From NCBI GenBank assembly GCA_945901245.1, contig CAMDKY010000005.1:1-62528 (forward strand): a stretch of DNA of 62,528 nt. The letters are read 5' to 3'. The notes beneath the pieces are model-generated. The model had not been told where the DNA came from and made no database searches. It saw only the letters and a list, made by a program, of their open reading frames with translations. The stretch's first letter is position 1; every line of letters starts with the position of its first letter. This DNA is from Polynucleobacter meluiroseus. GTDB taxonomy: Bacteria; Pseudomonadota; Gammaproteobacteria; Burkholderiales; Burkholderiaceae. Made by a program: the position numbers and the translations under genes. Below, one piece after another: positions 15,350 to 35,736 of this stretch.

Positions 15350-15478
15350 GTCATTTCCAAGTCATTACAATGGGCAATAAAGAATATGTTCAATTCAATA
15401 GTGAATTTCATTCCACTTTTAAATTTTTTCTAGGGGATTTCCCGCAATTTCTGTAAATTTTGTTTGATTGTAGAACAA

Positions 15479-15501
15479 TTTGTTCCATTTTATTGAAATA
15501 G
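15479..15501 (+). promoter_or_regulatory. Operator A upstream of xsc
   Basis: TTTGTTC, nine bases, then GAAATAG: a copy of the palindrome found at four other places in the sulfonate region, with a strong left half and weaker right half. It overlaps a possible promoter, TTGAAA at 15493-15498 and TTTAAT at 15515-15520. A degenerate left half (TTCATTCCACTT) sits 72 bp upstream at 15407. The interval is shared with the divergent CobS-like gene. Confidence 0.55.
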
Positions 15502-15574
15502 TGGTAAAATTTAATTTAATTATCACGGTATTAATCCAGTTTTTCTCATTTTTTAACAATAAACGGAGAGTTTT

Positions 15575-17383
15575 ATGTCGAAATCAGATCACGCAGTCGT
15601 AGTTGGTCCCCAGAAAATGACGCCTTCAGAGGCTTTTGTGGAGACGATGGCCGCGAACGGCGTTACTGACACCTTCGGCATTATGGGATCAGCCTTTATG
15701 GATGCGATGGATATTTTTGCTCCGGCGGGCATTCGCTTAATTCCAGTCGTGCATGAGCAGGGCGCAGCACACATGGCCGATGGCTACTCTCGTGTTAGCG
15801 GTCGTCATGGCGTTGTTATTGCTCAAAACGGACCCGGCATTAGCAATTGCGTTACCGCCATTGCTGCGGCGTATTGGGCGCATAGCCCAGTCGTCATGAT
15901 TACGCCAGAGACTGGAACTATGGGCATGGGCCTTGGTGGATTTCAGGAAGCAAATCAATTGCCTATGTTTGAGGAATTTACCAAGTATCAGGGACACGTT
16001 AATAACCCAAAGCGGATGGCAGAGTACACCGCACGTTGTTTTGATCGGGCCATGTCAGAAATGGGCCCTACCCAGTTAAATATTCCACGGGATTATTTTT
16101 ATGGGGAGATTGAGGTAGAAATCCCCCAGCCAAATCGACTTGATCGCGGCCCAGGCGGTGAGAATAGCCTCAATGAAGCAGCCGAGCTTTTGGCAAATGC
16201 AAAGTTCCCTGTGATTATTTCTGGTGGTGGCGTTGTGATGGGTGATGCCGTTGAGGAGTGCAAGGCATTGGCTGAGCGCCTTGGTGCTCCAGTAGTCAAT
16301 AGCTACTTGCATAATGACTCATTCCCAGCAAGCCACCCCCTGTGGTGTGGCCCACTTGGGTATCAGGGCTCCAAAGCTGCTATGAAGTTAATGGCGCAGG
16401 CCGATCTTGTTGTGGCCTTGGGCTCCCGCCTGGGACCCTTTGGTACATTGCCACAACATGGCATGGATTACTGGCCAAAAAATGCCAAGATCATTCAAAT
16501 TGATGCCGATAACAAAATGCTGGGATTGGTGAAGAAGATTTCGGTGGGCATCTGCGGTGACGCTAAGGCAGCAGCAATTGCATTAACGCAGCGCCTAGCC
16601 AACAAAACCTTGGTTTGCGATGCGACAAAAACAGAGCGTGCCAAAACCATTGCTGCAGAAAAAGCTGCATGGGAAAAAGAGCTGGATGAATGGACGCATG
16701 AGCGTGATGCATTTAGCCTTGACATGATTGAGGAGCAGAAAAAGGAGCGCACTCCAACGGGTGGAAATTACCTCAGCCCAAGGCAGGTATTGCGTGAGCT
16801 TGAGAAAGCGATGCCAGCCGATGTGATGGTATCGACCGATATTGGGAATATTAATTCGGTTGCAAACAGTTATTTGCGTTTTGAAAAGCCCCGCAGCTTT
16901 TTTGCTCCCATGAGCTTTGGTAACTGTGGTTATGCCTTACCAACCATTATTGGCGCCAAGGTTGCCGCTCCAGACAGGCCAGCCATTGCCTATGCTGGTG
17001 ATGGCGCTTGGGCAATGAGTATGGTGGAAATCATGACGGCAGTACGGCATGACATTCCTGTAACAGCAGTGGTCTTTCATAATCGCCAATGGGGCGCTGA
17101 AAAGAAGAACCAGGTTGATTTTTACAATCGCCGGTTTGTTGCTGGTGAATTAGAGAGCTCTAGTTTTGCGGGCATTGCCAAGTCGATGGGAGCTGAAGCA
17201 ATTGTGGTTGATCAACTTGATCAAGTGGGCCCAGCACTTAAAAAAGCAATTGATATGCAAATGAATGAAGGTAAAACCTGTGTACTCGAGATTATGTGTA
17301 CTCGCGAATTGGGTGACCCATTCCGTCGTGATGCATTGTCCAAGCCAGTACGTTTCCTTGAGAAATACAAAGACTACGTCTAA
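15575..17383 (+). CDS. xsc: Sulfoacetaldehyde acetyltransferase
   Basis: 602 residues, the usual length for Xsc. It is a thiamine-diphosphate enzyme that converts sulfoacetaldehyde and phosphate to acetyl phosphate and sulfite. E61 in VVHEQGAAHMADGYSR is the cofactor-activating glutamate. AGDGAWAM (GDG at 475-477) with HNRQWGAEKKNQ downstream is the ThDP site. The NH2-terminal GIMGSAFMDAMDIF and the PETGTMGMGLGGFQEANQ segments are Xsc-like. The ATG follows a strong GGAGAG. Context fits: pta, soeABC, sauST and suyAB genes all lie within 12 kb. It is monocistronic, ending at a terminator. Confidence 0.93.
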   Translation: MSKSDHAVVVGPQKMTPSEAFVETMAANGVTDTFGIMGSAFMDAMDIFAPAGIRLIPVVHEQGAAHMADGYSRVSGRHGVVIAQNGPGISNCVTAIAAAYWAHSPVVMITPETGTMGMGLGGFQEANQLPMFEEFTKYQGHVNNPKRMAEYTARCFDRAMSEMGPTQLNIPRDYFYGEIEVEIPQPNRLDRGPGGENSLNEAAELLANAKFPVIISGGGVVMGDAVEECKALAERLGAPVVNSYLHNDSFPASHPLWCGPLGYQGSKAAMKLMAQADLVVALGSRLGPFGTLPQHGMDYWPKNAKIIQIDADNKMLGLVKKISVGICGDAKAAAIALTQRLANKTLVCDATKTERAKTIAAEKAAWEKELDEWTHERDAFSLDMIEEQKKERTPTGGNYLSPRQVLRELEKAMPADVMVSTDIGNINSVANSYLRFEKPRSFFAPMSFGNCGYALPTIIGAKVAAPDRPAIAYAGDGAWAMSMVEIMTAVRHDIPVTAVVFHNRQWGAEKKNQVDFYNRRFVAGELESSSFAGIAKSMGAEAIVVDQLDQVGPALKKAIDMQMNEGKTCVLEIMCTRELGDPFRRDALSKPVRFLEKYKDYV

Positions 17384-17423
17384 GTGTTTTGTGCTCCCTG
17401 TGGGATCTTATCCGCTAGGGAGT

Positions 17424-18005
17424 TTAAAAAATGGAGTGGTATGTTGATAAGTCCGGTCGCAATGCGCTACCGGACTTATTTTTTGAGACAGTGCCAATCG
17501 TAATAAAGCAAATTGGAAATTCATCTGGCGCTAGCTTAAAAAGCGCCCTTAGGCTTTGACTGGTGATTGCTTTACCGCTCGATAGGCCCGATCCAAAGCC
17601 AAGTGCATGTGCCGACAACAGGATGTTTTGAATCGCACAACCTAAAGAAACCATCTTCTCATGCGCGCTAACCCCATCTGGGGTGATGCCTAATTTAGCA
17701 ACTGCCAGGAGTAGTAGGGGGCCGCGGAATGCTTTTGCATAGGCCTCCTGTAACTCGACGGAGCTTGCTAACGGATCCCGTTCAATCAGGCACTCCTTAA
17801 AGACCGAGCCCAATAGAGGACGACTTGGTTCGCTTATCTCAAAAAAATGCCAAGGTGTATTTCGGCCATGGTCTGGAGCAGCTTTTGCAGACTCCAGAAT
17901 AGATACTTTTTGCTCTGCCGTTGGGCCGGGTTCAATTAATCGTTTCGGGGAAACATGTACCCGCCCATGAATTAATGCATCGGCATACTCATCGATTGAT
18001 TTCAG
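17424..18005 (-). CDS. Nitroreductase-family FMN protein with no ordinary start codon
   Basis: A YdjA-like nitroreductase of about 193 residues. RLIEPGPT, AAPDHGRNTPWHFFEI and HALGFGS...SSGKAI are visible. From the first TTG in frame (17813) the conserved FMN-binding N-terminus would be lost. Upstream the frame stays open into soeC but contains no ATG, GTG or TTG. A CTG at 18005 would give (M)KSIDEYADALIHGRV, a natural beginning. The soeC stop is 12 bp away, so reinitiation is possible. It is the last gene of the iclR-pta-soeABC unit. Its role in sulfonate metabolism is unknown. Confidence 0.65.
   Translation of the reverse strand: MKSIDEYADALIHGRVHVSPKRLIEPGPTAEQKVSILESAKAAPDHGRNTPWHFFEISEPSRPLLGSVFKECLIERDPLASSVELQEAYAKAFRGPLLLLAVAKLGITPDGVSAHEKMVSLGCAIQNILLSAHALGFGSGLSSGKAITSQSLRALFKLAPDEFPICFITIGTVSKNKSGSALRPDLSTYHSIF
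17449..17485 (+). terminator. xsc terminator inside the convergent nitroreductase gene
   Basis: AAGTCCGGT (17449-17457) pairs with ACCGGACTT (17469-17477) and is followed by ATTTTTT. It lies 66 bp after the xsc stop and within the last codons of the convergent nitroreductase gene. Confidence 0.75.
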
Positions 18006-18016
18006 TGGGCTAATAG

Positions 18017-18949
18017 CTAGGATACCCGCTGGTAATATAAGTTTTGGGGGTGGTTGGCATCAGCGAAAAATAAAAAACGCTCTGCCATCAAGCCAGTCAG
18101 CTGCGCTATAAATGCAATAAATACCCATACCGCCTGATCTTGACCAATTGCCAGTACTAAGAGAAGCAGCGGCAAAATATAGGCTGCTATCAAGGTAATT
18201 CTTCGTAAGTTCCGAATCACTAAATCACTTTGATGATGAAAAAACTCCTTGGTATTAAAGCTTCCGCCAGTCATGCCCATGGATGTTTGGCGAACATTAC
18301 TTGCCTTAAGGCCAGTAGCAGAGTTAATCGTTGAAATGGGGCGAAGATTGCGATTGCGCTTCCAAATCCAGAGCTTGATGACCATGGCTATCGCTATCAG
18401 AATAAAACCAATTTGACTCAGCGCTAGCACTGAAATTATTTCAGTACCAAACCATAACAGGAGTAGGGTGGATAATAGCATCCAGCCGGACGCGAGGCCA
18501 AGAATAATGAAATTAAGAGAAGTAGAAAAGTGTGCCCACTCTTGAATAAAGCGTATGCACTGATAGATTTTGGCAGTGCAGATCCAGAGCCCAAAGGATA
18601 CAACAATAAGAGCCACCCATATCCAGCTACTACTTTTCCCGAGGTAAGCAGCAAGGAGAGCAAGGCATGTTATTCCAATGAAAATCGGTAAAACGATGAC
18701 CTCGCGTGAAAGCCAAGAGGTGCGCCACATCAATACTGCGCGCCATGCTCTCTCTGGGTGACCCAAGTGAAACATAGAGGCAATCAAGCCAATCATCAAT
18801 AGAGCCAATGAAATCGGTAATGCGAGTAGAACTAGAAAGTCATCTGGCAAACCGCTGTTGCCAATACTCATGATGCCTATGAAAACAAGTAGGCCCTGGG
18901 CCATGCCCGCCAACGTGGTGAAGAAAATGAGAGAAAAACTAGGATGCAT
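18017..18949 (-). CDS. soeC: Sulfite dehydrogenase membrane anchor subunit (DmsC/NrfD-like)
   Basis: 310 residues with about eight strongly hydrophobic spans. It belongs to the DmsC anchor family: HPSFSLIFFTTLAGMAQGL at the start, then SMFHLGHPERAWRA and RTSWLSREV. It would hold SoeAB at the cytoplasmic face of the inner membrane and pass electrons to quinone. The gene overlaps soeB by 11 bp. A DMSO-reductase role is an alternative by family, but the sulfite-producing neighbours favour SoeC. Confidence 0.78.
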   Translation of the reverse strand: MHPSFSLIFFTTLAGMAQGLLVFIGIMSIGNSGLPDDFLVLLALPISLALLMIGLIASMFHLGHPERAWRAVLMWRTSWLSREVIVLPIFIGITCLALLAAYLGKSSSWIWVALIVVSFGLWICTAKIYQCIRFIQEWAHFSTSLNFIILGLASGWMLLSTLLLLWFGTEIISVLALSQIGFILIAIAMVIKLWIWKRNRNLRPISTINSATGLKASNVRQTSMGMTGGSFNTKEFFHHQSDLVIRNLRRITLIAAYILPLLLLVLAIGQDQAVWVFIAFIAQLTGLMAERFLFFADANHPQNLYYQRVS

Positions 18950-19637
18950 TATTTTCTGCCTTCACTGCATTGATGATTTCGGTAATGGAGCGTGGTAAGT
19001 AATGGTTGGCGGGTTGCGTTTCCCATTCCGGCATGAGTTTGTAGCCTGAGCGCTTTTCAATTGCTTGGCTTGCCTCTGACTCTGGATCATGGATATCGCC
19101 AAAAATACGTGCGCTAGTAGGGCAGGCAAGAACGCACGCAGGTTTCTTTTCGCTTTCTGGCAAGGTCTCGCTATAGATCCGATCTACGCATAAAGTACAT
19201 TTGGTCATGACTTGACGCTCTTCGTCGAGTTCACGCGCGCCATAAGGACAGGCCCAAGCGCAATACTTACAGCCAATGCATTTGTCATAGTCGACAAGCA
19301 CAATGCCATCTTCCGCGCGCTTATAACTTGCCCCTGTTGGGCAGACTGGTACACAGGGCGGGTCCTCGCAGTGCAGGCATGATTTGGGAAAATGCACGGT
19401 TTCCATTTTGGGGAAGGTGCCAGACTCGTAGGTTTGAACCCGGTTAAAAAATGCCCCGTTTGGATTCGCGCTATAGGCGTTGAGGTCGGTCAGCGGACCC
19501 GCTGATCCCGAGGTATTCCATTCTTTGCAGGAGGTGACGCATGCATGGCAACCGACGCATACGTTCAGGTCAATGACCAAAGCCAGTTGTTTTCTCTTTG
19601 GCGTTGGATTTGCAGAAATACTATTATTTTGTGGCAT
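18939..19637 (-). CDS. soeB: Sulfite dehydrogenase iron-sulfur subunit
   Basis: 232 residues with four [4Fe-4S] cluster motifs: CVGCHACVTSCKEWN, CLHCEDPPCVPVCPTGA, CIGCKYCAWACPYGA and CTLCVDRI...CVLACPTSA. This is the electron-transfer subunit between the molybdenum centre and the membrane anchor. There is no signal peptide or Tat motif, consistent with the cytoplasmic location of SoeAB. The gene lies 21 bp after soeA and overlaps soeC. Confidence 0.82.
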   Translation of the reverse strand: MPQNNSISANPTPKRKQLALVIDLNVCVGCHACVTSCKEWNTSGSAGPLTDLNAYSANPNGAFFNRVQTYESGTFPKMETVHFPKSCLHCEDPPCVPVCPTGASYKRAEDGIVLVDYDKCIGCKYCAWACPYGARELDEERQVMTKCTLCVDRIYSETLPESEKKPACVLACPTSARIFGDIHDPESEASQAIEKRSGYKLMPEWETQPANHYLPRSITEIINAVKAENNAS

Positions 19638-19658
19638 AGGTATTTTATATAGAAAGGG

Positions 19659-22529
19659 TTATTTTTTAATCATTCCGGGCACACGATACGCTTTGACTTG
19701 CGGCCATGTTTCTTCCGGCTCGTTTTCATCTGCAGCAGCTAGTTTGACGCGCACATCGTACCAGCCTGCTTGACCTGTGATTGGGTCAGAATTGCTGACT
19801 GAAAATCCACCCAGTGAGAGCTCTTCCGTAATGAGGTGATTGAGCAAAAACCCTTTTTTGGATTCATCCGAATTCGGATCTAGGCTCCAGGCAGATTCTG
19901 CTTTACCAATTGCATTCCAGGTCCAAACGGTTCCAGGATCAACTGCTTCAGAGTGGCGGGCCATGCACTTCACCTTACCCCATTGAGATTCAATCCACAT
20001 CCAGGCGCCATCTTGAATGCCGTGCTCTAGCGCTGTTTTGGTGTTGACGTACAGATAGTTATGGCTATGAATTTGCCTGAGCCACGCATTTTGCGAATCC
20101 CAAGAGTGATACATCGCCATTGGCCGCTGCGTGATGGCGTTTAAGCTATATTTTTCAAGATCGGTAACCTCATCCTCCAGCGGTGGATACCAAAATGGGA
20201 GGGGATCAAAATATTTTACGATTCTTGCTTTGAGGTGATCTGGAGGTGTTGATCCAGGCCGCTGGCCTTTTGCAGCCAAGCGAAATTTTTGCAAAATATC
20301 CGAGTAAATGGCAATCATGATGGGATCGTTTTTCTGACGAAGTGCATTCGCCTTACTAAAGTCAAGATAGCCACGATTCCAATTGCGCATGTATTGATGC
20401 TCTATTGGCATTTTGTAATGAAAGACGCAATTATTTTCCTCATAGCGTTTCCATTGATCGGGATTTGGCTCGCCGCGTAAACTCTTTTCACCATCCTTGC
20501 CGCGCCAGCCCGCTAAAAATCCAATGCCAGAGTTTGGAGCGGTTTCAAAGCGGGTAATAAAGTCAGGATAGTCTTTAAATTTGCGGCTGCCATCTTCCGC
20601 CGTAAAGGCTGGGAACTTTAGGCGTGAAGCTAATTCAATTAAAACTTCTTGGAAGGGTTTGCAATCGCCAGTCGCTGGCAAGACCGGAATACGCACTGAG
20701 TCGACCGGTCCATCAAACTCGGAAATTGGCCGATCCAGCAAACTCATTGCATCATGGCGCTCTAAATAGGTTGTATCGGGGAGGACTAGGTCTGCAAAAT
20801 CAACCATTTCAGACTGAAATGCGTCGCAGACTACGATGAATGGAATTTTAAATTCCCCATCCGTATCTTTTGAGTTCAATAGTTCGCGTACTTCCATCGT
20901 ATTCATGGTGGAGTTCCATGACATATTAGCCATAAAGATCATCAGCGTATCGATGGAATACGGATCACCCTTAACTGCATTGGTAATGACGTTATGCATT
21001 AATCCGTGGGCAGCTAGAGGATGCTCCCAGGTATACGCTTTGTCGATGCGCAGTGGCGTTCCATCTTTGTCCAAGGCTAGATCTTCTGGCTGGGTTGGCC
21101 ATCCTAGCGGAGCCTTACCGAGTGGCGTATTAGGTTTAATGTCATTTTCAGAAGAGGGCGGCTTCACGTTTGGTGGCACTTGCCGTGGGTAAGGCGCTTT
21201 ATGTCTGAAGCCGCCTGGCCTATCAATCGTTCCAATTAGCGACATCAATACGGCCAATCCACGCGTTGTTTGAAAGCCATTGGAGTGCGCAGCCAAACCA
21301 CGCATTGCATGAAAGGCCACCGGCCTTGCGGTCACGGTCTCATGCGACTCGCCCCAGGCGTCAGTCCATTGAACCGGCATTTCAAATGCTTGTTCAAATG
21401 CGGCTTGACCAATTTCAGTTGCTAATTTTTTAATTCGATCAGCCGGAATGCCTGTAATAGAGGATGCCCACTCTGGCGTGGTGTCTTGTACTTGCTTGCG
21501 GAGCAATTCAAATGCGGGCGCAACTTTCTTACCTTGGTGTGGGCCTGGGCCCATGGTGAACTCACCGCAGAGCGTTGGCGATACACCTTTTTCAAAGCAG
21601 GGTCTTGCGCTTTGGGTTTTCTCGTCCCACACATACTTGTTGTGCGGTAAATCTGCATTAATGGGATCGGAGTCGGGGTCAAACAAAAATAGACCTTCCT
21701 CGGGTCCCGCATCCAAACAGACTAGCTGACCAGAATTGCTGTAGCGCTTTAGAAAAGCAGCATCGTATTGTTCGGTTCGTATTAATTCATGCATCAATGC
21801 CATGAACAAAGCACCATCCGTTCCGGGTTTAATCGGAATCCATTCATCGGCAATGGCCGAATAACCAGTACGTACGGGATTAATGGATATAAAGCGGCCA
21901 CCCGATCGTTTAAACTTTGAGAGTGCAATCTTCATGGGATTGCTGTGGTGATCTTCAGCAGTGCCAATCATGATGAACAGCTTGGCATGATCTAGGTCGG
22001 GCCCACCGAATTCCCAGAAACTACCGCCAATCGTATAAATCATTCCAGCAGCCATATTGACGGAACAAAATCCGCCATGCGCTGCGTAATTCGGCGTGCC
22101 AAACTGGCGGGCAAATAGACCCGTTAAGGCTTGCATCTGATCGCGCCCCGTAAATAGAGCAAACTTTTTAGGATCAGTCTCTCGAATTTTTTGAAGGCGT
22201 GCCGCTAACAATGCATAGGTTTGTTCCCATGTAATTTCATCAAATTCACCCGAACCCCGGTCACTTCCCTTTCTTCGCAGCAGGGGTTTTGTAATTCGTG
22301 CGGGGGATTTCTGCTTCATGATGCCGGCAGCGCCTTTTGCGCAGATGACGCCTTGGTTCAGCGGGTGCTCTGGGTTGCCATCAATGTAGACCAGTTCACC
22401 ATCACGCAGATGGGCTCGAATGCCGCAGCGGCAAGCACACATATAGCATGTTGTTTTTTTGATTTCGGTCGTGGCTGCTTGCTTGTGAATCGGATCGTGA
22501 ATTGGATCTTTTGAAAAAATCTTGAACAT
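19659..22529 (-). CDS. soeA: Sulfite dehydrogenase (quinone) molybdopterin subunit
   Basis: 956 residues of the bis-MGD molybdoenzyme family. A [4Fe-4S] motif of C28-x2-C31-x3-C35-x27-C63 lies near the N-terminus, followed by the Mo-bisMGD domains and a C-terminal dinucleotide-binding domain. There is no twin-arginine signal. SoeABC oxidises cytoplasmic sulfite to sulfate and feeds quinone. It is used by Allochromatium vinosum and by marine roseobacters degrading taurine. Here it sits between pta and xsc, exactly where sulfite from Xsc and SuyAB must be disposed of. Other DMSO-reductase-family substrates are possible but less likely. Confidence 0.82.
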   Translation of the reverse strand: MFKIFSKDPIHDPIHKQAATTEIKKTTCYMCACRCGIRAHLRDGELVYIDGNPEHPLNQGVICAKGAAGIMKQKSPARITKPLLRRKGSDRGSGEFDEITWEQTYALLAARLQKIRETDPKKFALFTGRDQMQALTGLFARQFGTPNYAAHGGFCSVNMAAGMIYTIGGSFWEFGGPDLDHAKLFIMIGTAEDHHSNPMKIALSKFKRSGGRFISINPVRTGYSAIADEWIPIKPGTDGALFMALMHELIRTEQYDAAFLKRYSNSGQLVCLDAGPEEGLFLFDPDSDPINADLPHNKYVWDEKTQSARPCFEKGVSPTLCGEFTMGPGPHQGKKVAPAFELLRKQVQDTTPEWASSITGIPADRIKKLATEIGQAAFEQAFEMPVQWTDAWGESHETVTARPVAFHAMRGLAAHSNGFQTTRGLAVLMSLIGTIDRPGGFRHKAPYPRQVPPNVKPPSSENDIKPNTPLGKAPLGWPTQPEDLALDKDGTPLRIDKAYTWEHPLAAHGLMHNVITNAVKGDPYSIDTLMIFMANMSWNSTMNTMEVRELLNSKDTDGEFKIPFIVVCDAFQSEMVDFADLVLPDTTYLERHDAMSLLDRPISEFDGPVDSVRIPVLPATGDCKPFQEVLIELASRLKFPAFTAEDGSRKFKDYPDFITRFETAPNSGIGFLAGWRGKDGEKSLRGEPNPDQWKRYEENNCVFHYKMPIEHQYMRNWNRGYLDFSKANALRQKNDPIMIAIYSDILQKFRLAAKGQRPGSTPPDHLKARIVKYFDPLPFWYPPLEDEVTDLEKYSLNAITQRPMAMYHSWDSQNAWLRQIHSHNYLYVNTKTALEHGIQDGAWMWIESQWGKVKCMARHSEAVDPGTVWTWNAIGKAESAWSLDPNSDESKKGFLLNHLITEELSLGGFSVSNSDPITGQAGWYDVRVKLAAADENEPEETWPQVKAYRVPGMIKK

Positions 22530-22560
22530 GGTTTTGTGGTTTCTTAAAAAGGGATTTAGT

Positions 22561-23463
22561 TTAGGCGAGGCGCAGTGCTAATGCAGTGGATGCGACTCTG
22601 GAAAAAACGGAGTCAGAGCGTGATGTGAGGATAATCGGCACACTAGTACCTAATATGGCTCCAGCGCACTCGGCGCCTGCCATGTAAATGAGTGATTTAT
22701 ACAAAATATTGCCGGCCTGAAGATCAGGGGCGAGCAATAGGTCAGGATCCCCAGAGACCATCGAATCGATTCCTTTTGTTTTTGCTGAGGCCGCTGAAAT
22801 GGCATTATCAAAACCGAAGGGGCCCTCAATTAACGCGCCCGGAAAGAAGGGTTCATCACGCTGTAAATCGACCAATGTCTTTGCATCCACCGTTGTCTGC
22901 ATGCTTGGATTAACCACCTCCGTAGCTGCAATGATGGCTACTTTGGCCTTATTGATTCCAATTTTGGCGAGCGCATCTAAGCTATTGAGCAAGATGTGTT
23001 TTTTATGCTCAACCGTAGGGGCAATGTTAACAACACAGTCACTAATCCCAATGAGCTTATGGTAATTGCCGAGTTCAAACAAAAAGAGGTGGCTAGTTCT
23101 CCGCGTGGTTCTTAGGCCTTCCTTACTGACAACCGGGCCCATTAAGTCCTCGGTATGAAGCGAGCCTTTCATGAGGGCGGCAAGTGCACCACTCTTGGAC
23201 AGGGTTACTGCGACCTGAGCAGCTTCTACCGGGTTATTGGGCGTGTCAACAATTTCAATGCCATGAATATCGATTGATAGTTTTTTCGCAAGCAGGGTAA
23301 TTTGATCTTTGGGGCCAATAAATACAGGGGCACAAAGTGCTTGCTCTCGAATTTGAACTGCCGTCTCTAATGCTGGCTCACTCAATGGAAAAACGATGCC
23401 AAGGCGCTTGGATCCTTTGGACTCGTTAATCAGCTTCTGTAAAAGAGGGTATCTAGGGGCCAT
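22561..23463 (-). CDS. pta: Phosphate acetyltransferase (short form)
   Basis: 300 residues, the short Pta/Ptb type rather than the 700-residue enterobacterial form. LMKGSLHTEDLM, the RTTRRTSHLFLFEL segment and VSGDPDLLLAPDLQAGNILYKSL are conserved family stretches. In sulfonate pathways the xsc-linked Pta converts acetyl phosphate to acetyl-CoA. It follows iclR by 6 bp and precedes soeA by 31 bp. Phosphate butyryltransferase is the main alternative; the xsc neighbourhood supports Pta. Confidence 0.85.
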   Translation of the reverse strand: MAPRYPLLQKLINESKGSKRLGIVFPLSEPALETAVQIREQALCAPVFIGPKDQITLLAKKLSIDIHGIEIVDTPNNPVEAAQVAVTLSKSGALAALMKGSLHTEDLMGPVVSKEGLRTTRRTSHLFLFELGNYHKLIGISDCVVNIAPTVEHKKHILLNSLDALAKIGINKAKVAIIAATEVVNPSMQTTVDAKTLVDLQRDEPFFPGALIEGPFGFDNAISAASAKTKGIDSMVSGDPDLLLAPDLQAGNILYKSLIYMAGAECAGAILGTSVPIILTSRSDSVFSRVASTALALRLA

Positions 23464-23469
23464 GCGTAT

Positions 23470-24270: not shown

Positions 24271-24296
24271 GGGATTTATCTCATAAAATTACACGA

Positions 24297-24319
24297 TTTG
24301 TTCATTTTAATAGAACATC
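24297..24319 (-). promoter_or_regulatory. Operator B between iclR and the Bug-sauST genes
   Basis: TTTGTTC, nine bases, GAACATC: a good inverted repeat 27 bp upstream of the iclR start codon. Its centre is 71 bp from the centre of operator D. Probably the autoregulatory IclR site. Confidence 0.6.
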
Positions 24320-24367
24320 CTTAGTTTATAGCAAAAAACACTCAGTGTTTTTACTTATGCGAAACAA

Positions 24368-24390
24368 CTTGTTCAGCTTAGCTGAATAGA
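24368..24390 (+). promoter_or_regulatory. Operator D upstream of the Bug-sauST genes
   Basis: CTTGTTC, nine bases, GAATAGA, with an internal perfect TTCAGC-TTA-GCTGAA repeat. The TTGTTC (24369-24374) could double as a -35 box with TATGGT at 24392-24397 (17-bp spacing), so a bound regulator would sit on the promoter. It ends 49 bp before the Bug start. Confidence 0.55.
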
Positions 24391-24439
24391 GTATGGTTAT
24401 CACTGGAGACTTACTAAAATAACATCTATAGGAGTTTGT

Positions 24440-25423: not shown

Positions 25424-25463
25424 GCGTATTAGTAATCATTTTTAAACTTTCAGTAAAGAGCAT

Positions 25464-26867: not shown

Positions 26868-26903
26868 TTAGAATAATTTAGTACCCATTCATCCTCTCTC
26901 AAA

Positions 26904-28448: not shown

Positions 28449-28453
28449 GGCTG

Positions 28454-29737
28454 TTATTTTGTTTTCTTTTGCTTTGTCTTCAAAATCTGATGCATTAAAG
28501 CAGATGAAAAAATACCGATTAAGATTGCCCATTCCAGTGCAATCGTAACCGTTCCAATCGCGGTAATCACCATCGGAACCCACTCCTTTTTCCCCATTCT
28601 GAATTCGTGGCGAATTTGCTTGAAATCAATGAGTTTCCACGCTACCAGCAACAATAGCGAGGCAATCACAACATAGGGTATGTGCTTTGCAAGGGGCGAT
28701 ATAAAAGCCAGAATGATGATCAAGAAAATTGCAGCACTGATTGCGGATAGTGGCGTTTTCGCTCCCGCAGCCAGATTAACGCCGGTGCGATTAAATGAGC
28801 CACTTGAGGGGTAGGCCGAGAAAAATGAACCTGCCACATTAGCCAATCCTTGCCCGATGAACTCTTGATTGGCATTGAATGTATCTTTTGTTTTTAAAGC
28901 GATCGCTCGCGCAATCGCCATTGCCTCTGTAGAGGCCAGTAAGGTCATGATTAATGTGGCAGCAAATAATTTTTGTAAGGTGGAGACGCTTAAGTCCGGC
29001 ATTGAGAGGGGAGGGAACGCCCCTGGAATGTCACTAACACGCTTAAATTGATTCATGAGAGGAAAAGCAAGCTCGATAATTATTGCTGCAATAGCACCAA
29101 TAATTACAGCAATCAGCATGGAGGGTATGTATTTATTGAGAGGCGCCCATAAGCGAATGACGCCTAGCGTGATGAACACCAATACGATTGAATACCACTG
29201 CATATTGCCACTGTGCACCTGAGTCGTAACCGCCTGCAGGGTATCAATAACAGCCGTCCCTCGCGGTATGTTCATTCCCAGGAGCGTACCAACTTGGCTG
29301 TTAATAATCAGTACAGCAGCCCCAGCCGTAAACCCAACAATCACCGAGTGAGGAACCTTTTCTACCCATTTTCCAATACCGCTAAAACCTAAGGCCAGCT
29401 GAATCACCCCCACCAGAAAACTAAGCGTGAGAACGAATACAACGTATTGCGGCGATTCTGGTAGGGCAAGTGGCGCAATCAGTGCCATGGTTGTTAGAGA
29501 TATTGCATTTGCTGGCCCCGTTACCATGAGGCGGCTTGAGCCAAAGAGGGCAGCAATCAAGCAGGGCACCATAGCAGCATAAAGGCCATAGTGGGGCGGC
29601 ATTCCAGCCAGTAATGCAAATGCAATGCCTTGGGGCAATACAACAATGGCGCCGGTTAGGCCGGCCAGCACATCAGCGCGGATAACCCCCGGTTTTTTGT
29701 ATTCCGGCAACCATTGCAAAAAAGGAAAGAGTTTCAT
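28454..29737 (-). CDS. SulP-family anion transporter lacking a STAS domain
   Basis: 427 residues with about ten to twelve hydrophobic segments. The SulP signature region is clear (DVLAGLTGAIVVLPQGIAFALLAGMPPHYGLYAA and VTGPANAISL), as is a SYPSSGSFNRTGVN-like stretch. Typical SulP carriers have 550-600 residues with a cytosolic STAS domain; this one ends straight after the last membrane span. It is the last gene of the TRAP-BKACE-GMC unit. Sulfate export or exchange would suit the pathway, but direction and ion are not shown by sequence. Confidence 0.8.
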   Translation of the reverse strand: MKLFPFLQWLPEYKKPGVIRADVLAGLTGAIVVLPQGIAFALLAGMPPHYGLYAAMVPCLIAALFGSSRLMVTGPANAISLTTMALIAPLALPESPQYVVFVLTLSFLVGVIQLALGFSGIGKWVEKVPHSVIVGFTAGAAVLIINSQVGTLLGMNIPRGTAVIDTLQAVTTQVHSGNMQWYSIVLVFITLGVIRLWAPLNKYIPSMLIAVIIGAIAAIIIELAFPLMNQFKRVSDIPGAFPPLSMPDLSVSTLQKLFAATLIMTLLASTEAMAIARAIALKTKDTFNANQEFIGQGLANVAGSFFSAYPSSGSFNRTGVNLAAGAKTPLSAISAAIFLIIILAFISPLAKHIPYVVIASLLLLVAWKLIDFKQIRHEFRMGKKEWVPMVITAIGTVTIALEWAILIGIFSSALMHQILKTKQKKTK

Positions 29738-29794
29738 GTATACCGGCAGCTTGTTATTGTGGATTTGCTGCCGCGCGAAGTAAAAGTCATGCAG

Positions 29795-31399
29795 TTAATT
29801 TTTATTGTTCAGAATTAAGTCTGCCGCTTTTTCAGCCATCATCACTGCTGGCCAATTCGTATTGCCGGATGGCAAGGTCGGCATGGCAGAGCAATCAACC
29901 ACCCGCAATCCTGTTACGCCCCGTACCCTCAACTCCGAATCCAATACGGCCATCGGATCCGAGTCAGTGCCCATTTGGCAGGTACCTGTTGGGTGAAAAA
30001 TCGTAGCCCCGTTATTGCGGCAAAATTCCAGTAGATCGGCATCGCTCTGAGGATTATTGGGTTTAATTTCCCGGGTGATGAGCGATTTAAGCGGCTCGGT
30101 TTGTGCGATCTTCCGCGCAAACTTCACGGCAGCGACGCTAACGTCGCGATCGTGTTCTGTAGCGAGGTAGTTGGCAACCATTTTTGGCGGCAGTAATGGG
30201 TCCGCCGATTGAATACGGACATGGCCTCGAGACTCTGGCCTTAGCTGGCATACAGACATGGTAAATCCGGGGAAGGGATGGACATTTCCGCCTGCCATAT
30301 CGGCTGACAAGGTTGCCATATGGAACTGGATGTCTGGCGTCCGCGAAGATTTCATCACTTTGGTGAATAGTCCGCCTTGATTAATTCCAATGGAAAGTGG
30401 ACCGCCCCGAAATAGTAGCCAATCTAGACCTATCTTTACTTTGCCAAAAAGCGATGAGAGCTGCACATTGGTTGATATCGGTTGATTTAGTTCGTAAATT
30501 AAACGGTATTGCAGGTGATCTTGTAAGTTTTCACCAACGCCGGGAAGGTCTTGGATGATCGGGATATTAAATTCCCTTAAGAGGGCTGCTGGGCCAATTC
30601 CGGATAGCTGCAAAATTTGTGGCGATTGCAGGGCGCCAGCGCTCAGAATGATTTCCTTATTGGCCCTAATAACTTGCTTTTGACCGTCACGTATTAATTC
30701 GATAGCCACCGCGCGTCGCCCTTCAATGACGATGCGCATGACCTGACTATTCGTCAAGATTGTCAGGTTACTGCGCTGTTTGACCGGATTTAAGTAGGCA
30801 ACCGCAGTACTGCAGCGCAATCCTTTATGGGTTGACAGTTGGTAGTAGCCCACGCCTTCTTGAGTGAGGTTATTAAAGTCATCGGTTTCGGGTACGCCCA
30901 AGTTCACTGCAGTTTTTATGAATGATTCAACCAAGGGGTGCTTTTTCGGTATAGACGATGCCTTCAAGGGGCCCGTTTTTGAGTGGAGTGGCTCGCCCAA
31001 GCGATCATTGCCCTCCGCTTTTTTAAAATAGGGTAGAACATCATCCCAGCCCCAGCCCGCATTGCCAAGATTCTTCCAGCCGTCGTAGTCTTCTTTTTGC
31101 CCGCGAATAAAAATCAATCCATTAATTGAACTAGACCCACCTAAGCACTTTCCACGGGGCCAATAAATCTTACGTTGATTCATTCCAGGATCAGGCTCTG
31201 TTTCGAACTTCCAATTAACTTTGGGATCCCACATGGTCTTCCCGTACCCAATCGGCAAGTGAATCCACGGCGAGCTATCTTTTGGTCCTGCTTCAATTAA
31301 GCAAACCGAGTTTTGGGGATCTTCTGACAGGCGGTTGGCTAAAACGCAGCCCGATGATCCGGCGCCAACCACAATATAGTCAAATTGGCTATCTTGCAT
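29795..31399 (-). CDS. GMC-family FAD oxidoreductase, possible isethionate dehydrogenase
   Basis: 534 residues. The ADP-binding DYIVVGAGSSGCVLANRL is at the N-terminus. GGSSSINGLIFIRGQ, the GAxxSPQILQLSGIG-type motif and the C-terminal FHPTGTCQMG with NTNWPAVMMAEKAADLI are all GMC hallmarks. IseJ, the isethionate dehydrogenase of C. necator, is of this class and yields sulfoacetaldehyde, the Xsc substrate. The TRAP transporter in the same unit also fits isethionate uptake. However, the BKACE gene between them (6 bp away) suggests a 3-hydroxyacid substrate instead. Choline or other alcohol oxidation cannot be excluded. Confidence 0.8.
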   Translation of the reverse strand: MQDSQFDYIVVGAGSSGCVLANRLSEDPQNSVCLIEAGPKDSSPWIHLPIGYGKTMWDPKVNWKFETEPDPGMNQRKIYWPRGKCLGGSSSINGLIFIRGQKEDYDGWKNLGNAGWGWDDVLPYFKKAEGNDRLGEPLHSKTGPLKASSIPKKHPLVESFIKTAVNLGVPETDDFNNLTQEGVGYYQLSTHKGLRCSTAVAYLNPVKQRSNLTILTNSQVMRIVIEGRRAVAIELIRDGQKQVIRANKEIILSAGALQSPQILQLSGIGPAALLREFNIPIIQDLPGVGENLQDHLQYRLIYELNQPISTNVQLSSLFGKVKIGLDWLLFRGGPLSIGINQGGLFTKVMKSSRTPDIQFHMATLSADMAGGNVHPFPGFTMSVCQLRPESRGHVRIQSADPLLPPKMVANYLATEHDRDVSVAAVKFARKIAQTEPLKSLITREIKPNNPQSDADLLEFCRNNGATIFHPTGTCQMGTDSDPMAVLDSELRVRGVTGLRVVDCSAMPTLPSGNTNWPAVMMAEKAADLILNNKN

Positions 31400-31405
31400 T
31401 CGAGG

Positions 31406-32239
31406 CTATCCAGCCGCCCTCAAGCCCAACATGGTTCGGGCCAATTTCGCATTCGCAACGGGTCGATTGTATTTGGCGGCTAATTCTGTAACGCGCGAGA
31501 CTAACTCTGCATTGTCTTTTGCGACGCGGGACTGATCGTATTTAATATTGTCCTCTAGGCCAGTGCGAGCATGCCCGCCCATTTCGAGCGCCCATTCATT
31601 CACAGCAAGCTGATGCCTTGCAATGCCAGCTGCAGTCCATGTTGCATCTGGCATGATTTCGTTTAACTCGCTCACCAAAAACTCCAAGATACTCCGCTTT
31701 GCTGGCATGGCATTGGGCACGCCCATCACAAATTGAACATGCGCAGGCGCCTTTAGTAATCCGCGTTTGATTAAATCAGCAGCGCTGTAGAGCATGGCCA
31801 TATCAAATATTTCAATCTCTGGCTTGATATCGTACTTATTCATTTCATTCGCAAGCCCGTCGACGAAAGTCGGTGGATTCTCATAAATGCCATGGGGAAA
31901 ATTGACGGATCCAGTTGCGAGCGATGCCATATCGGGACGGTGAAATAGCATGGCCCCCCGTAATGCCTGATCTTGGCCCCTGCCACCGGTTGAGAATTGA
32001 ATAATCATATCTGGGCAATGTTTTTTAATGCCCTCCTGAACTTTTGCAAATTGATCGGGATCTGAGCTTGGGCTCTCATCCGGCTTACGGACATGCAAGT
32101 GAACTAAGGCCGCACCCGCCTCATAGGCCTTGTGCGTCTCTTCGATTTGTTCGGAGACGGTAACTGGGAGGCCTGGACAGTCCTTTTTACGGGGAATTGC
32201 ACCAGTAATAGCTACAGTGATAATGACGGGTTTATTCAT
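31406..32239 (-). CDS. Beta-keto acid cleavage enzyme (BKACE, DUF849)
   Basis: 277 residues, the normal BKACE length. The zinc ligands H47 and H49 are in LVHLHVRKPDESPSSD. QFSTGGRG and the MGGHARTGLEDN motif with its glutamate are conserved. These enzymes take a beta-keto acid plus acetyl-CoA to acetoacetate plus a new acyl-CoA (3-keto-5-aminohexanoate cleavage and dehydrocarnitine cleavage are examples). The stop is 6 bp from the GMC oxidoreductase start. A plausible scheme is GMC making the keto acid from a 3-hydroxyacid, then BKACE releasing an acyl-CoA. Confidence 0.88.
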   Translation of the reverse strand: MNKPVIITVAITGAIPRKKDCPGLPVTVSEQIEETHKAYEAGAALVHLHVRKPDESPSSDPDQFAKVQEGIKKHCPDMIIQFSTGGRGQDQALRGAMLFHRPDMASLATGSVNFPHGIYENPPTFVDGLANEMNKYDIKPEIEIFDMAMLYSAADLIKRGLLKAPAHVQFVMGVPNAMPAKRSILEFLVSELNEIMPDATWTAAGIARHQLAVNEWALEMGGHARTGLEDNIKYDQSRVAKDNAELVSRVTELAAKYNRPVANAKLARTMLGLRAAG

Positions 32240-32367
32240 AATTTACCTAACAGTTGTGATAGTCTAATCCTAAAAGTTTTGATAAGTTTATCTCGAATAA
32301 TGAAATAAATATTTAGATGAACGAAGTTCAATGACTGAAGAATTAAAGGATAACTTTAAATATCATA

Positions 32368-33678
32368 TTAGTTAATTGATGGTAGCCAAGTGGCTAACTG
32401 CGGAAAAACTAATAGCAGGATTACCGCAATAATTTGTAACACCATAAATTGGGACATGCCAGCATAAATATCCGTTATCTTCCAAGAGGGAGCAACTCCT
32501 TTAAGGAAATAAGCAGATAGAGCAACTGGCGGCGAAAGCCAAGCCGTCTGAAGTGTTACTGCCACTAAGGTGCTAAACCAAATTAAATCAATACCTGCTG
32601 CTTTAATAATGGGTAAGAAGATGGGTACAACGATTAAAACAATCGGAACCCACTCCAGCGGCCATCCCAGTAAGAAAATCAAGAACAAGATTAAGATCAA
32701 CATCATCATGGGTGGCAAGGGTAGCGAGGTTAGAAAGCTAGCAATCAAATCCGCACTACCAAGCCTTGAAAATACCGACCCAAACAGGTTTGAAGTGGTG
32801 ACTAAAAGCAAAATCATGCTTGAGACACGCAGCGTTTGCATTACGCAGTTTTTGATTTTGATAAACGTCATGCGTCCAGACATGGTGGTCAGCAAGAAGG
32901 TTGCTACGCAACCAACGGCACCCGCATCGGTTGGGGTTGCTATCCCTGCCAGTATTACGCCTAAAGTAGCAAATAAAACCACAATCACCGGAGCAATACC
33001 AATCAGAAAATCAATTAAAACCGGCTTAAGCGATTTTGCGCGCATTTCAATAGGCAGTGCTGGGCCTAGCGCTGGATTGATCCAGCAGCGAATCATGCAC
33101 CAAGAGGCAAACAGGAATGCCAATAGCAAGCCCGGCAAGACTGCAGCGGCAAATAAATCTGTTGCAGGAATACCGACGACTGGTCCCATCACAATTAGCA
33201 TCACTGATGGCGGTATCAGGATACCCAATGTTCCGCCAGCGGTAATTGCTCCTGCGGACATGCGCACATCGTACCCACTTTTAATCATAGATGGCGCAGC
33301 CATTACACCTAGCAAGACTACCGATGAGCCTACGATACCCGTTGCGGCGGCAAAAATAGTGGCGGTAACGATCACTGCTAAATAGAGTGAGCCTCGAATG
33401 CCCGCAAACAATTGCTGAATCGCTCCAAACAAGCGTTCCATAATGCCGGACTGCTCTAATAAAAATCCCATAAAAAGAAAAAATGGGATTGATGCTAGGA
33501 CACTATCTTGCATAACGGATAGCGTTTGCAAAATCGCAAGATCAAATACAACGGGGCCTAAGGCAATAAAGCCCATGATGATACTGAGTGCTCCGAGCGT
33601 AAACGCAATCGGAAAGCCAATAAAGATTGCGCACAGCAAAAAGCCTAAGCCAACAATACCTAAAATTTGATGATCCAT
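32368..33678 (-). CDS. TRAP transporter large permease subunit (DctM-like)
   Basis: 436 residues, almost wholly hydrophobic, with about twelve membrane spans. Family signatures are PFFLFMGFLLEQSG, ATGIVGSSVVLLGVMAAPSM and AGGTLGILIPPSV. It forms the channel of a sodium-driven TRAP transporter with the DctQ protein encoded immediately upstream (1 bp apart). The transporter serves the BKACE/GMC unit and may carry isethionate or another small sulfonate or hydroxy acid. The 128 bp between this gene and BKACE show no clear terminator. Confidence 0.9.
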   Translation of the reverse strand: MDHQILGIVGLGFLLCAIFIGFPIAFTLGALSIIMGFIALGPVVFDLAILQTLSVMQDSVLASIPFFLFMGFLLEQSGIMERLFGAIQQLFAGIRGSLYLAVIVTATIFAAATGIVGSSVVLLGVMAAPSMIKSGYDVRMSAGAITAGGTLGILIPPSVMLIVMGPVVGIPATDLFAAAVLPGLLLAFLFASWCMIRCWINPALGPALPIEMRAKSLKPVLIDFLIGIAPVIVVLFATLGVILAGIATPTDAGAVGCVATFLLTTMSGRMTFIKIKNCVMQTLRVSSMILLLVTTSNLFGSVFSRLGSADLIASFLTSLPLPPMMMLILILFLIFLLGWPLEWVPIVLIVVPIFLPIIKAAGIDLIWFSTLVAVTLQTAWLSPPVALSAYFLKGVAPSWKITDIYAGMSQFMVLQIIAVILLLVFPQLATWLPSIN

Positions 33679-33679
33679 C

Positions 33680-34243
33680 CTATGCCCCTTTTTTTGTGGT
33701 TTCTAAGGGCCATTCGTTTGATCGAATTGCAACCAGGCATTTGCTTACTTCGGAGAGTCCTTGAATAAAGAGCAGGAAACCTGTTAGAGGTAAAGTGAGT
33801 TTAAAAGGCCAGGTAATGGCCATCCAAGGACTTGATACAAAGCGTTCATTGCTGGTAAAGGCTTTAAAGAAATATTCCCATCCAACGATTGTAAAAATAA
33901 GCACAAAAGGGTAGAAAAGTAATAAATAACAAGCAAGATCAACTAAGGCTTGTTTTTTTGGTGACCAGTTGTCATAAAACATATCGGTACGAATGTGACC
34001 CTTGTGTTTAAGGGTATAACTCGAACCCAACATAAAAAAGGCACCATAAAGCATAAATGTCATGTCATAGGCCCAGATAGTAGGGGCGCCGAAAGCATAT
34101 CGTGCTACCACTTCGTAAGCCAGGCTGAGAATCATTGGAATCAGCATCCAGCCTACGATATTACCTACTATTGAGGTGATGCGATCCAGTTTTTTGGAGA
34201 ATGCGATTAATTCTTGATTTGTATTAAACACCGTCAATTCCAT
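33680..34243 (-). CDS. TRAP transporter small permease subunit (DctQ-like)
   Basis: 187 residues with four predicted membrane helices, including VGWMLIPMILSLAYEVVARYAFGAPTIWA-type DctQ sequence (broken here across the first two helices). It pairs with the DctM protein. The start codon follows a terminator-like hairpin with its T-run only a few bases upstream, and has no recognisable Shine-Dalgarno sequence. Its expression may therefore be reduced relative to the binding protein. Confidence 0.85.
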   Translation of the reverse strand: MELTVFNTNQELIAFSKKLDRITSIVGNIVGWMLIPMILSLAYEVVARYAFGAPTIWAYDMTFMLYGAFFMLGSSYTLKHKGHIRTDMFYDNWSPKKQALVDLACYLLLFYPFVLIFTIVGWEYFFKAFTSNERFVSSPWMAITWPFKLTLPLTGFLLFIQGLSEVSKCLVAIRSNEWPLETTKKGA

Positions 34244-34245
34244 TT

Positions 34246-34274
34246 AAAAAAAGGGTGGGAATGCCCACCCTTTT
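34246..34274 (-). terminator. Terminator-like hairpin between dctP and dctQ
   Basis: On the minus strand AAAAGGGTGGG pairs with CCCACCCTTTT around a CATT loop, followed by further T residues. The T-run ends right before the dctQ ATG. Likely an attenuator or processing element that favours the upstream binding-protein gene. Confidence 0.7.
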
Positions 34275-34295
34275 ATCGACAACTAAAAGTAAAGA

Positions 34296-35411
34296 TTATT
34301 TCTTCTTACTATTTACTACTGTTGCACCAATGTTGTAGTACAGACCATTAATTTGTGTCCAGTAAGGAACAACAATTCCGGCAAATTTCCTTTGTGACTC
34401 CAATACCTCTTTGAAGAAGGGGTTCTTCTCAGATTCACGTGTATAAACAACAGCAGTCGCTTTTTGGAATGCAGTGAAAAACTCTTTTGGAGTGTCATGT
34501 ACTGTTACGCCATGATCTTTTTTGAGCTTTTCTAAAGCGACAGCATTACGGTAGACGTTAAAAGTGTAGGTTTCTGCGATTGTTGCGGAAACTGCTGTTT
34601 CAACTATGACCTTAAGATCTGCTGGCAATTTATTCCAGAACGCTTTGTTAATCAAGAGTTCTGCAACGTCAGTGGATTGATGTAAACCTTGGAGGTAGTA
34701 ATGCTTAAAGACATTTTGAAAGCCCAAAATCATATCGTCTGCCGGACCAATCCATTCGGCCGCATCAATAACACCACGTTGTGCTGCTGGCACAATTTCG
34801 GACCCCGGCATGGCCACTGTTGTTAAACCCATTTCTCTAAAAATTTCTGCTGTTAGCCCTGGGGGCGACCGATATTTCATTGGTTTCATATCAGCAATTG
34901 AATTGATGGGCTTTTTGAACCAGCCAAAAGGATCGGGACCCATGGGCTGGATCATAAATGGTTTGATATTAGTTTTGAGTACCTCAGTAAAAAGACGCTC
35001 ATAAAGCTGGTCTCCTCCGCCATTTTTAAGCCAAGCCATGTGCGAGACTTGATCTAGTCCAACACCTGAGCCAGAGGCTGGATTAGAAAATAATGCAGCT
35101 GCAGAGTTTTTTCCAGACCAGTAATGGGTCCATGCAAATCCACCGTCGACAACGCCTTTATCAACTGCATCCAAAATTCCGAATGCACCTACAACAGCGC
35201 CGTCAGGCAGGACTTCTACTTTGAGGCGTCCATTTGACATTTTGTCGACACGATCGCCAAAGTTTTTCATGAGCTCAAAATAGATGCTGGCAGAAGGCAC
35301 GCCTGTTTGAATTTTCATTTTTATTGGCGCAGACTGCGCAAATGCGGTTCCACACAGTGCGGCAGATAGAGCCGTAACCGCTGCTAGCCTTTTAACAAAT
35401 TGAATAATCAT
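34296..35411 (-). CDS. TRAP transporter periplasmic binding protein (DctP-like)
   Basis: About 371 residues. A signal peptide (LAAVTALSAALCGTAFA) is followed by a DctP domain with MKIQTGVPSASIYFELM, SPPGLTAEIFREMGL and VPAAQRGVIDAAEWIGP. The ATG at 35411 is chosen over one 27 bases upstream because AAGGAG stands six bases before it. It is the first gene of the TRAP-BKACE-GMC-SulP unit, and two operator copies (E and C) lie upstream. The family includes binders of keto acids and sulfonates; the ligand is not known. Confidence 0.88.
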   Translation of the reverse strand: MIIQFVKRLAAVTALSAALCGTAFAQSAPIKMKIQTGVPSASIYFELMKNFGDRVDKMSNGRLKVEVLPDGAVVGAFGILDAVDKGVVDGGFAWTHYWSGKNSAAALFSNPASGSGVGLDQVSHMAWLKNGGGDQLYERLFTEVLKTNIKPFMIQPMGPDPFGWFKKPINSIADMKPMKYRSPPGLTAEIFREMGLTTVAMPGSEIVPAAQRGVIDAAEWIGPADDMILGFQNVFKHYYLQGLHQSTDVAELLINKAFWNKLPADLKVIVETAVSATIAETYTFNVYRNAVALEKLKKDHGVTVHDTPKEFFTAFQKATAVVYTRESEKNPFFKEVLESQRKFAGIVVPYWTQINGLYYNIGATVVNSKKK

Positions 35412-35469
35412 TTCAAACTCCTTGTTTATGTTTAACAATCGTTACTTTTTAATTGCTCCTTTACAATAC

Positions 35470-35492
35470 CCCATTCAACCTAACGGAACAAG
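35470..35492 (-). promoter_or_regulatory. Operator E upstream of the TRAP operon
   Basis: On the minus strand CTTGTTC, nine bases, GAATGGG: good left half, weak right half. It ends 58 bp before the dctP start codon and its centre is 71 bp from that of operator C. This repeats the D-B arrangement upstream of the Bug-sauST genes. Confidence 0.55.
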
Positions 35493-35540
35493 TTGTTTAT
35501 TATTAGTAAAAACGATTAGGAAAAGTGCATAAAAACTCCT

Positions 35541-35563
35541 TTTGTTCCACTTAATGGAACAAA
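35541..35563. promoter_or_regulatory. Operator C, near-perfect palindrome in the dctP/tauE intergenic region
   Basis: TTTGTTC, nine bases, GAACAAA. With flanking bases the repeat is TTTTGTTCCA-N5-TGGAACAAAA, 10-bp perfect arms. It is the best copy of the shared palindrome. The 325-bp gap between dctP (35411) and the TauE-type gene (35737) otherwise shows only AT-rich sequence, presumably the two divergent promoters. Confidence 0.65.
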
Positions 35564-35736
35564 AAATTAAATTTATTTGTTATTTATGGAATATTCTCGC
35601 TAATTGGGTTTGATAACAATATTCTGTGCCAACTAGTTTGCAATTTGCACATTATTTAGGACCTAAAGATGGATGGTCTTTTTATTTTTATGTTTAGCGG
35701 ATAGGCAATGGTGAACTCTAGTATGGTTAATATCAG

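Follow-up and report, generated by a model that had tools for sequence, protein, structure and literature searches.

How does a bacterium switch a sulfonate pathway whose genes are spread over several transcription units? The question is raised by a contig of Polynucleobacter meluiroseus (CAMDKY010000005.1, positions 1 to 62,528; the window below means this whole stretch of 62,528 nucleotides), one of 79 contigs in the assembly of 1,970,237 bases that we scanned. By predicted function, its gene set encodes a two-carbon (C2) sulfonate pathway comprising xsc, iclR-pta-soeABC, tctC-sauS-sauT and an operon for a tripartite ATP-independent periplasmic (TRAP) transporter. Here we propose, with a probability of roughly 0.8, that the IclR-family protein encoded at 23470-24270 on the minus strand controls a C2-sulfonate regulon through three-box operators with partner sites, likely as a repressor. 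The sequence comparisons described below strongly support a single IclR regulon over all four units.

Three-box operators with partner sites

A sequence-only reading of this region had described one palindrome at five sites (15479, 24297, 24368, 35470 and 35541). All five are present at these positions, and the copy at 35541 has the perfect 10-bp arms ascribed to it (35540-35564). As a common unit, however, one palindrome covers only part of the element. An extra box lies one base from the earlier-described unit at 15479, 24368 and 35470, giving three alternating boxes, TTC-N9-GAACAA-N-TTGTTY, at the xsc, tctC-sauST and dctP promoters. The regulatory unit is, as predicted from these boxes, an IclR-family three-box operator, and all three operators are accompanied by a partner site. 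The reading of a single 21-bp palindrome as the common element was rejected, given that the outer TTC at tctC is degenerate in many relatives and GAACAA-N-TTGTTT is nearly invariant.

At xsc, the three-box operator GAACAA-T-TTGTTC-N9-GAA (15473-15497, plus strand) is conserved in Polynucleobacter xsc upstreams. The degenerate half reported 72 bp from it corresponds to a distal half-box, ATTCCA, at 15410-15415 on the plus strand. The tctC-sauST promoter operator occupies 24362-24386 on the minus strand; its TTGTTC at 24369-24374 (plus strand) doubles as the likely -35 box and is followed after 17 bp by a predicted -10 box, TATGGT (24392-24397, plus strand). The partner of this operator is a two-box (group 1, see below) operator upstream of iclR, TTGTTC-N9-GAACAT, at 24298-24318 (no strand assigned). 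The dctP (TRAP) promoter has the same arrangement: a three-box operator at 35474-35498 (plus strand), whose box at 35486-35491 reads TTGTTC on the minus strand and doubles as the likely -35, a predicted -10 box, TATTGT, 17 bp after TTGTTC (35463-35468, minus strand), and 71 bp from the operator the distal palindrome at 35540-35564, which has a two-box (group 1) core at 35542-35562 and no strand assigned. The centre spacing of 71 bp claimed for both transporter-upstream regions is exact.

A second block, AGTAAAAAC or AGTAAAAATACT, was seen near TTGTTT at 24344-24355 and 35505-35513. It is strongly conserved beside the Polynucleobacter tctC operator and stands at an equal distance in the TRAP region, and could represent either a fourth box (TTGTTT-N9-AAAAAY) or a site for another factor.

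The operators are recovered by matrices trained on other species

The copies proximal to the binding-protein genes, which had been called weak, proved to be the two best three-box sites of the window (tctC, 33.0 bits; dctP, 35.6 bits). These scores come from a combined matrix trained without the window's sites, on 29 distinct sites of other species (16 iclR, 10 xsc and 3 TRAP), with which the three operators of the window rank first to third at 30.9-35.6 bits; the best score in 40 resampled windows was 18.2 bits. Matrices built from only the xsc sites (10) or only the iclR sites (16) of other species each placed all three operators in the window's top four. Cross-prediction between unrelated promoters therefore holds, the xsc-only matrix finding the iclR and TRAP sites and vice versa. 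With the three-box matrix the iclR-proximal site reaches 18.7 bits, hardly over the resampled best; its own two-box matrix gives it 34.2 bits, against a best of 14.5 bits in 20 resampled windows.

The simpler pattern TTGTTC-N9-GAA, for which a genome-wide frequency check had been suggested, occurs at 10 distinct places in the genome. Five of these are the described sites, all within three intergenic regions, and the reversed control gave 12 matches. Because the motif was taken from those very sites, the count is post hoc and was rejected as proof.

The motif recurs with its proposed regulator across Polynucleobacter

Among 186 Polynucleobacter genomes, the pattern TTC-N9-GAACA-N3-TGTT has 86 matches (reversed control, 33). 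Just upstream (-30 to 250 bp) of xsc, iclR or dctP lie 45 of these (34, 6 and 5, respectively). Some of the 41 located elsewhere are operators on contigs with no xsc match, as for loci L267, L268, L270 and L168, which show an xsc-type upstream. The same motif thus recurs at the xsc, iclR and TRAP promoters of relatives, and the comparison of homologous intergenic regions that had been proposed found both motif and spacing conserved. An orthologue of the window IclR (E below 1e-80) is present in 45 of the 186 genomes and xsc in 43, with both in 40. Three-box matches were found in 39 of the 45 genomes with the orthologue versus 30 of the 141 without it (33 matches in those 141, to be read against the control of 33 in 186).

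At the chosen cut-off the TRAP binding protein occurs in 10 genomes. Five of them (G000, G162, G266, G267 and G284) have one IclR match each and a TRAP operon apart from xsc, and in all five both TRAP sites are present at 71 bp. Three (G158, G190 and G320) carry a second IclR near the TRAP genes, a fragment in G320, and in none are the TRAP sites present. In G165 the TRAP genes directly follow xsc and there is one weak site, and in G201, which has the binding protein, the whole genome gave no IclR match and the TRAP genes no site. At the G201 locus (L165), xsc (64%) stands in one run with tctC, sauS, sauT, GMC and TRAP genes, and no operator was found there.

Paired sites are kept at a fixed distance

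The paired-site architecture is conserved. We collected 60 iclR upstream regions, 34 of them distinct, and with the inner boxes as anchors the site-to-site spacing is 71 bp in 34 of 34. In one of these regions, seen in L041 and L166 (which seem to be a single contig), the gene divergent to iclR is xsc and not tctC, with the two sites again 71 bp apart in front of it. At xsc, the distance from ATTCCA to the operator is 72 bp in 30 of 31 distinct Polynucleobacter upstreams and 73 bp in one; this set excludes L041, L053 and L054, which have no regular operator, and L077, which belongs to another genus. Loci for xsc were obtained initially for 30 of the 43 xsc genomes, and 11 further places were added and checked together with L167 and L168; the spacing at these further xsc-type places is 72 bp in 12 of 12, one of them on an already counted contig.

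In the iclR, TRAP and xsc regions, the spacing is conserved independently of promoter and gene starts. The distance from the site to the iclR start ranges from 48 to 51 bp. The 31 xsc upstreams form two clades, of 7 (including the window) and 24 members, in which the operator lies about 92 bp and about 32 bp from the xsc start; 72 bp is kept through this change of about 60 bp. The xsc pair is a third spacing observation, separate from the two at the transporter promoters. This conservation strengthens the claim that the sites are paired. It does not extend to the further claim that 71 bp puts them on the same DNA face: 71 and 72 bp correspond to 6.8 and 6.9 turns at 10.5 bp, so that no absolute phase can be claimed.

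Two other features of these regions are worth recording. In the window's clade of seven sequences the xsc spacer contains an invariant GGGATTTCCC (15434-15443 in the window), which is absent from the other clade. In the one-contig genome G178 (L169), sauS, sauT, tctC, pta, soeABC and GMC match only piecewise and no xsc was found, while iclR is still present with its pair of upstream sites; the cluster looks like it is decaying.

A predicted repressor acting over two sites

In the model we favor, sulfoacetate and probably isethionate would be taken up and converted to sulfoacetaldehyde, which would be passed on through xsc, pta and sulfite disposal. IclR is predicted to bind the three-box operators at three promoters and would control its own operon through 24298-24318. 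Repression is its most likely mode, because one box of the operator coincides with the likely -35 at tctC and dctP, and because the operator lies between promoter and ribosome site of xsc in most Polynucleobacter. The first arrangement, TTGTTC-N17-TA...T, is found at tctC in 29 of 34 distinct regions, and the second, with a TTGAC promoter, in 24 of the 31 distinct xsc upstreams. The simpler partner site of each operator, whose distance is conserved (71-72 bp in the window), most likely adds cooperative binding, with a tetramer probably bridging the three-box operator and the distal site, and a sulfonate intermediate would release the protein.

Repression loops of 6-8 turns have been studied for LacI (as described in PMC5081198), and a bridge over 71 bp is thus physically possible. 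The claims of phase and looping are plausible hypotheses. We also entertain, tentatively and at somewhat less than even odds, a stronger version in which a short repression loop has a fixed phase. An IclR tetramer bridge would then tolerate spacings of 71-72 or 81-84 bp, roughly a helical turn apart, and no others, a geometry kept across Burkholderiales while promoters, spacers and targets changed, and one Polynucleobacter IclR would have taken over units that stand beside separate IclR paralogues in larger relatives.

The spacing of 81-84 bp comes from other genera of Burkholderiaceae and Burkholderiales, for which loci were obtained initially from 30 of 51 genomes, with 16 more places from the family and 4 from the order added. 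The motif GGAAC-N5-GTTCC is perfect in 14 of 34 distinct non-genus xsc upstreams and matches in at least 9 of 10 positions in 25 (shuffled, 0.0 and 0.24), and it reaches the latter level in 12 of 31 non-genus iclR upstreams (shuffled, 0.3). For the distal element ATTCC-N8-GAA, a permutation test on 31 representatives (75% clustering, operator score at least 9/10; 32 of 63 representatives with an operator score of 8 or less were left out) showed two peaks, one at 82 bp that was reached in 0 of 5000 permutations and one at 72 bp with P 0.0006. With the 27 representatives from outside Polynucleobacter the 82-bp peak is still reached in 0 of 5000 permutations, and at 60% clustering (22 representatives, 19 of them non-genus) its P values are 0.001 and 0.0008, and the 72-bp peak loses significance in both of these sets. 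Across 56 distinct non-genus upstreams with an operator score of at least 8, a partner scoring at least 6/8 lies at 81-84 bp in 20 and at 71-73 bp in 6; no such distal partner was found in the remaining upstreams.

Weighing the alternatives

Several observations weigh against the model. An exact three-box match is missing from 6 of the 45 IclR-bearing genomes, and G289 carries xsc-type operators at two places with no IclR orthologue found in an assembly that is 85% complete. The best NCBIfam score of the window IclR is to BhcR (NF045644), at 151.7 bits below the cut-off of 350, and BhcR of Paracoccus denitrificans is described as activating the bhc genes (PMC11323563). Outside the genus, the 72-bp mode is not significant (P 0.07 for the 27 representatives at 75% clustering; P 1.0 at 60%), and several IclR paralogues lie near xsc, sauS and the GMC gene, so that the motif there is not assignable to one of them. 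Finally, the distal xsc element in Polynucleobacter is a half-box that in many promoters stands about 22 bp from TTGAC, and it could serve the promoter or an activator.

This last point leads to the alternative that survives best, although we consider it rather unlikely: IclR could be an activator or a dual regulator, with the distal box as an activator site just upstream of the xsc -35 and the proximal operator for repression, the fixed distances reflecting contacts with RNA polymerase and no loop. For the larger of the two Polynucleobacter clades and for the 81-84 group, TTGAC is found 20-23 bp from the distal box, in most cases 22 bp, with the distance between distal box and operator differing (72 or 81-84 bp). 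BhcR, as noted above, is described as an activator, and fifteen regulators from the Cupriavidus necator screen in which SauR was included are described as activators or dual regulators (PMC7057948). The idea that a loop alone fixes the 72 bp is weakened by this tie to TTGAC, and from these xsc promoters by themselves a loop is not distinguishable from a role of the distal box at the promoter. Yet the window's own clade has no TTGAC in the 110 bp before the xsc operator and keeps 72 bp nonetheless, and at tctC and dctP the likely -35 box is part of the very operator from which the distal site is spaced by 71 bp. The window's xsc clade and the tctC and dctP promoters thus favor a link between the paired sites.

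A second possibility, which we regard as unlikely, is that the spacing of 71-72 bp is mostly inherited, the iclR-tctC and TRAP regions being copies of one control region with too few insertions and deletions to change it. Aligned in register, their spacers agree at 22 of 42 bases (P 0.0006), and the two regions may indeed be paralogous. For this reason the two exact 71-bp spacings do not count as fully independent of each other. The iclR-tctC spacer is also well conserved in part (mean identity 0.84), and a one-base shift between the xsc clades raises consensus spacer identity from 19/50 to 24/49, so some homology remains and the spacer is not fully saturated. In contrast, the last 20 bp of the iclR-tctC spacer have a mean identity of 58% (minimum 10%) over the 34 distinct regions that all keep 71 bp, and the 50-bp xsc spacers of the two clades average 33% identity to each other in register, with 72 bp kept across the shift in distance to xsc.

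That the sites belong to a regulator other than the window IclR seems improbable. Their attribution rests on proximity and association, and relatives do have IclR paralogues. However, the motif has the form described for the IclR family (PMC8222616), it stands in front of the iclR gene in every one of the 34 distinct regions, and the window IclR is the sole match in its genome at E<=1e-20. With this single match, the recurrence of the motif in relatives and the TRAP association, the regulon part of the earlier proposal, a four-unit regulon worked through same-face pairs, is supported together with the pairing, and the shared face is not. A chance pattern in AT-rich DNA has a negligible probability: the loose pattern does occur as often in its reversed control, but conservation across genus and family and the cross-prediction between unrelated promoters refute a chance origin.

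The IclR protein and its relatives

The 266-residue product of iclR, the first gene of iclR-pta-soeABC, belongs to the IclR family, with PF09339 (HTH_IclR, the N-terminal helix-turn-helix) and PF01614 (IclR_C, the C-terminal effector domain) both above cut-offs, and its best solved chain is 1mkm, an IclR regulator. We retrieved 34 relatives with identities of 74-96%, almost all of them in Polynucleobacter or betaproteobacterial records; the nearest named ones are from Polynucleobacter (96 and 95% identity). In a tree, the window IclR falls in one clade with other Polynucleobacter orthologues. A second clade of 15 non-genus proteins is near but not clearly sister to it, and for 10 of these 15 the gene is less than 400 bp from pta, xsc, cobS or soeC. 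IclR proteins encoded beside sauS, and several encoded beside the GMC gene, are on other branches, where deep forks are weakly supported. This distribution suggests that one Polynucleobacter regulator covers what several do in larger genomes.

In many relatives (L015, L018, L026, L034, L039 and others), a second IclR of about 30-38% identity lies next to genes for a beta-keto acid cleavage enzyme (BKACE) and a GMC protein, about 8 kb from iclR. No second IclR was found in the window genome at E<=1e-20, and the TRAP genes stand where relatives have this BKACE/GMC-side regulator.

Gene content of the sulfonate region

The xsc gene (15575-17383, plus strand) encodes a sulfoacetaldehyde acetyltransferase by NCBIfam TIGR03457 (1067.5 bits, cut-off 676.4). 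Downstream of iclR on the minus strand, 18017-23463 holds a pta-like gene of the phosphotransacetylase family (22561-23463) and the putative soeA (19659-22529), soeB (18939-19637) and soeC (18017-18949), in that order, with matches to molybdopterin and Fe-S families. No NCBIfam model matched the soeC-like gene, which is labeled by position only, and the gene context suggests a sulfite-oxidizing role for soeABC. On the plus strand, 24440-28448 encodes a tctC-like binding protein, SauS (NF047625, above cut-off) and a SauT-like CoA ligase. The minus-strand run at 28454-35438, probably an operon as judged from gene order and strand, comprises TRAP dctPQM, BKACE, a GMC dehydrogenase and a SulP permease. 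Its middle TRAP gene (33680-34243) matched no NCBIfam model. By context, the GMC dehydrogenase is presumably isethionate dehydrogenase-like, and the role of the SulP permease was likewise assigned from its neighbors. The BKACE gene (31406-32239; NF053568, above cut-off) lies inside this TRAP/GMC gene run.

Relation to known IclR systems and implications

Three-box operators have been described for 32 orthologous groups of the IclR family (Suvorova and Gelfand, 2021; PMC8222616). The window operators resemble those of PcaU, PobR and HmgR in that survey in having two box pairs with a common middle box and alternating directions. One box pair fits its group 1 (GTT-11-AAC), and the other resembles group 2 (TGRAACA-N1-2-TGTTYCA), a fit that is approximate, as the inner gap in the window is GAACA-N3-TGTTY. 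Tandem sites in the survey lie mainly at 18-22 nt, with about three and four turns also over-represented, in contrast to the partner sites at 71-72 bp described here. The main text of the survey contains no word starting with "sulf".

Other comparisons concern individual regulators. At aceBAK, E. coli IclR has two separated boxes upstream of aceB, and its motif (TGGAAATNATTTCCA) and pathway differ from those of the window. The E. coli protein is described as a tetrameric repressor that regulates its own gene, with small acids determining its oligomeric state (PMC11323563, PMC9755347), with glyoxylate releasing it (PMC11323563). SauR of C. necator H16 is reported to exert sulfoacetate-responsive control with a 395-fold dynamic range (PMC7057948); sulfoacetate-related control would be the likeness, and the difference is that one IclR in the window would span the xsc, sau and TRAP units. 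In our tree, which was built without the C. necator SauR sequence, the window IclR is on a branch apart from two sauS-adjacent rows, again across weakly supported deep forks. BhcR resembles the window protein in being an IclR-type regulator that acts on C2 metabolism and has a divergent control region.

In a literature search that covered few subscription journals, and in which the available parts of PMC7057948 and PMC6829993 were checked, no paper was found on an IclR operator at xsc, nor, among the titles listed, any on sulfonate regulation in Polynucleobacter. For xsc, which stands for the central step of desulfonation, our analysis provides a probable regulator and operator, and the motif can be searched for in other Burkholderiaceae. 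The conserved spacing of two sites also forms a natural promoter series for testing cooperative IclR binding over about seven turns. For freshwater Polynucleobacter, one regulator gene and its sites appear to switch the whole sulfonate pathway together.

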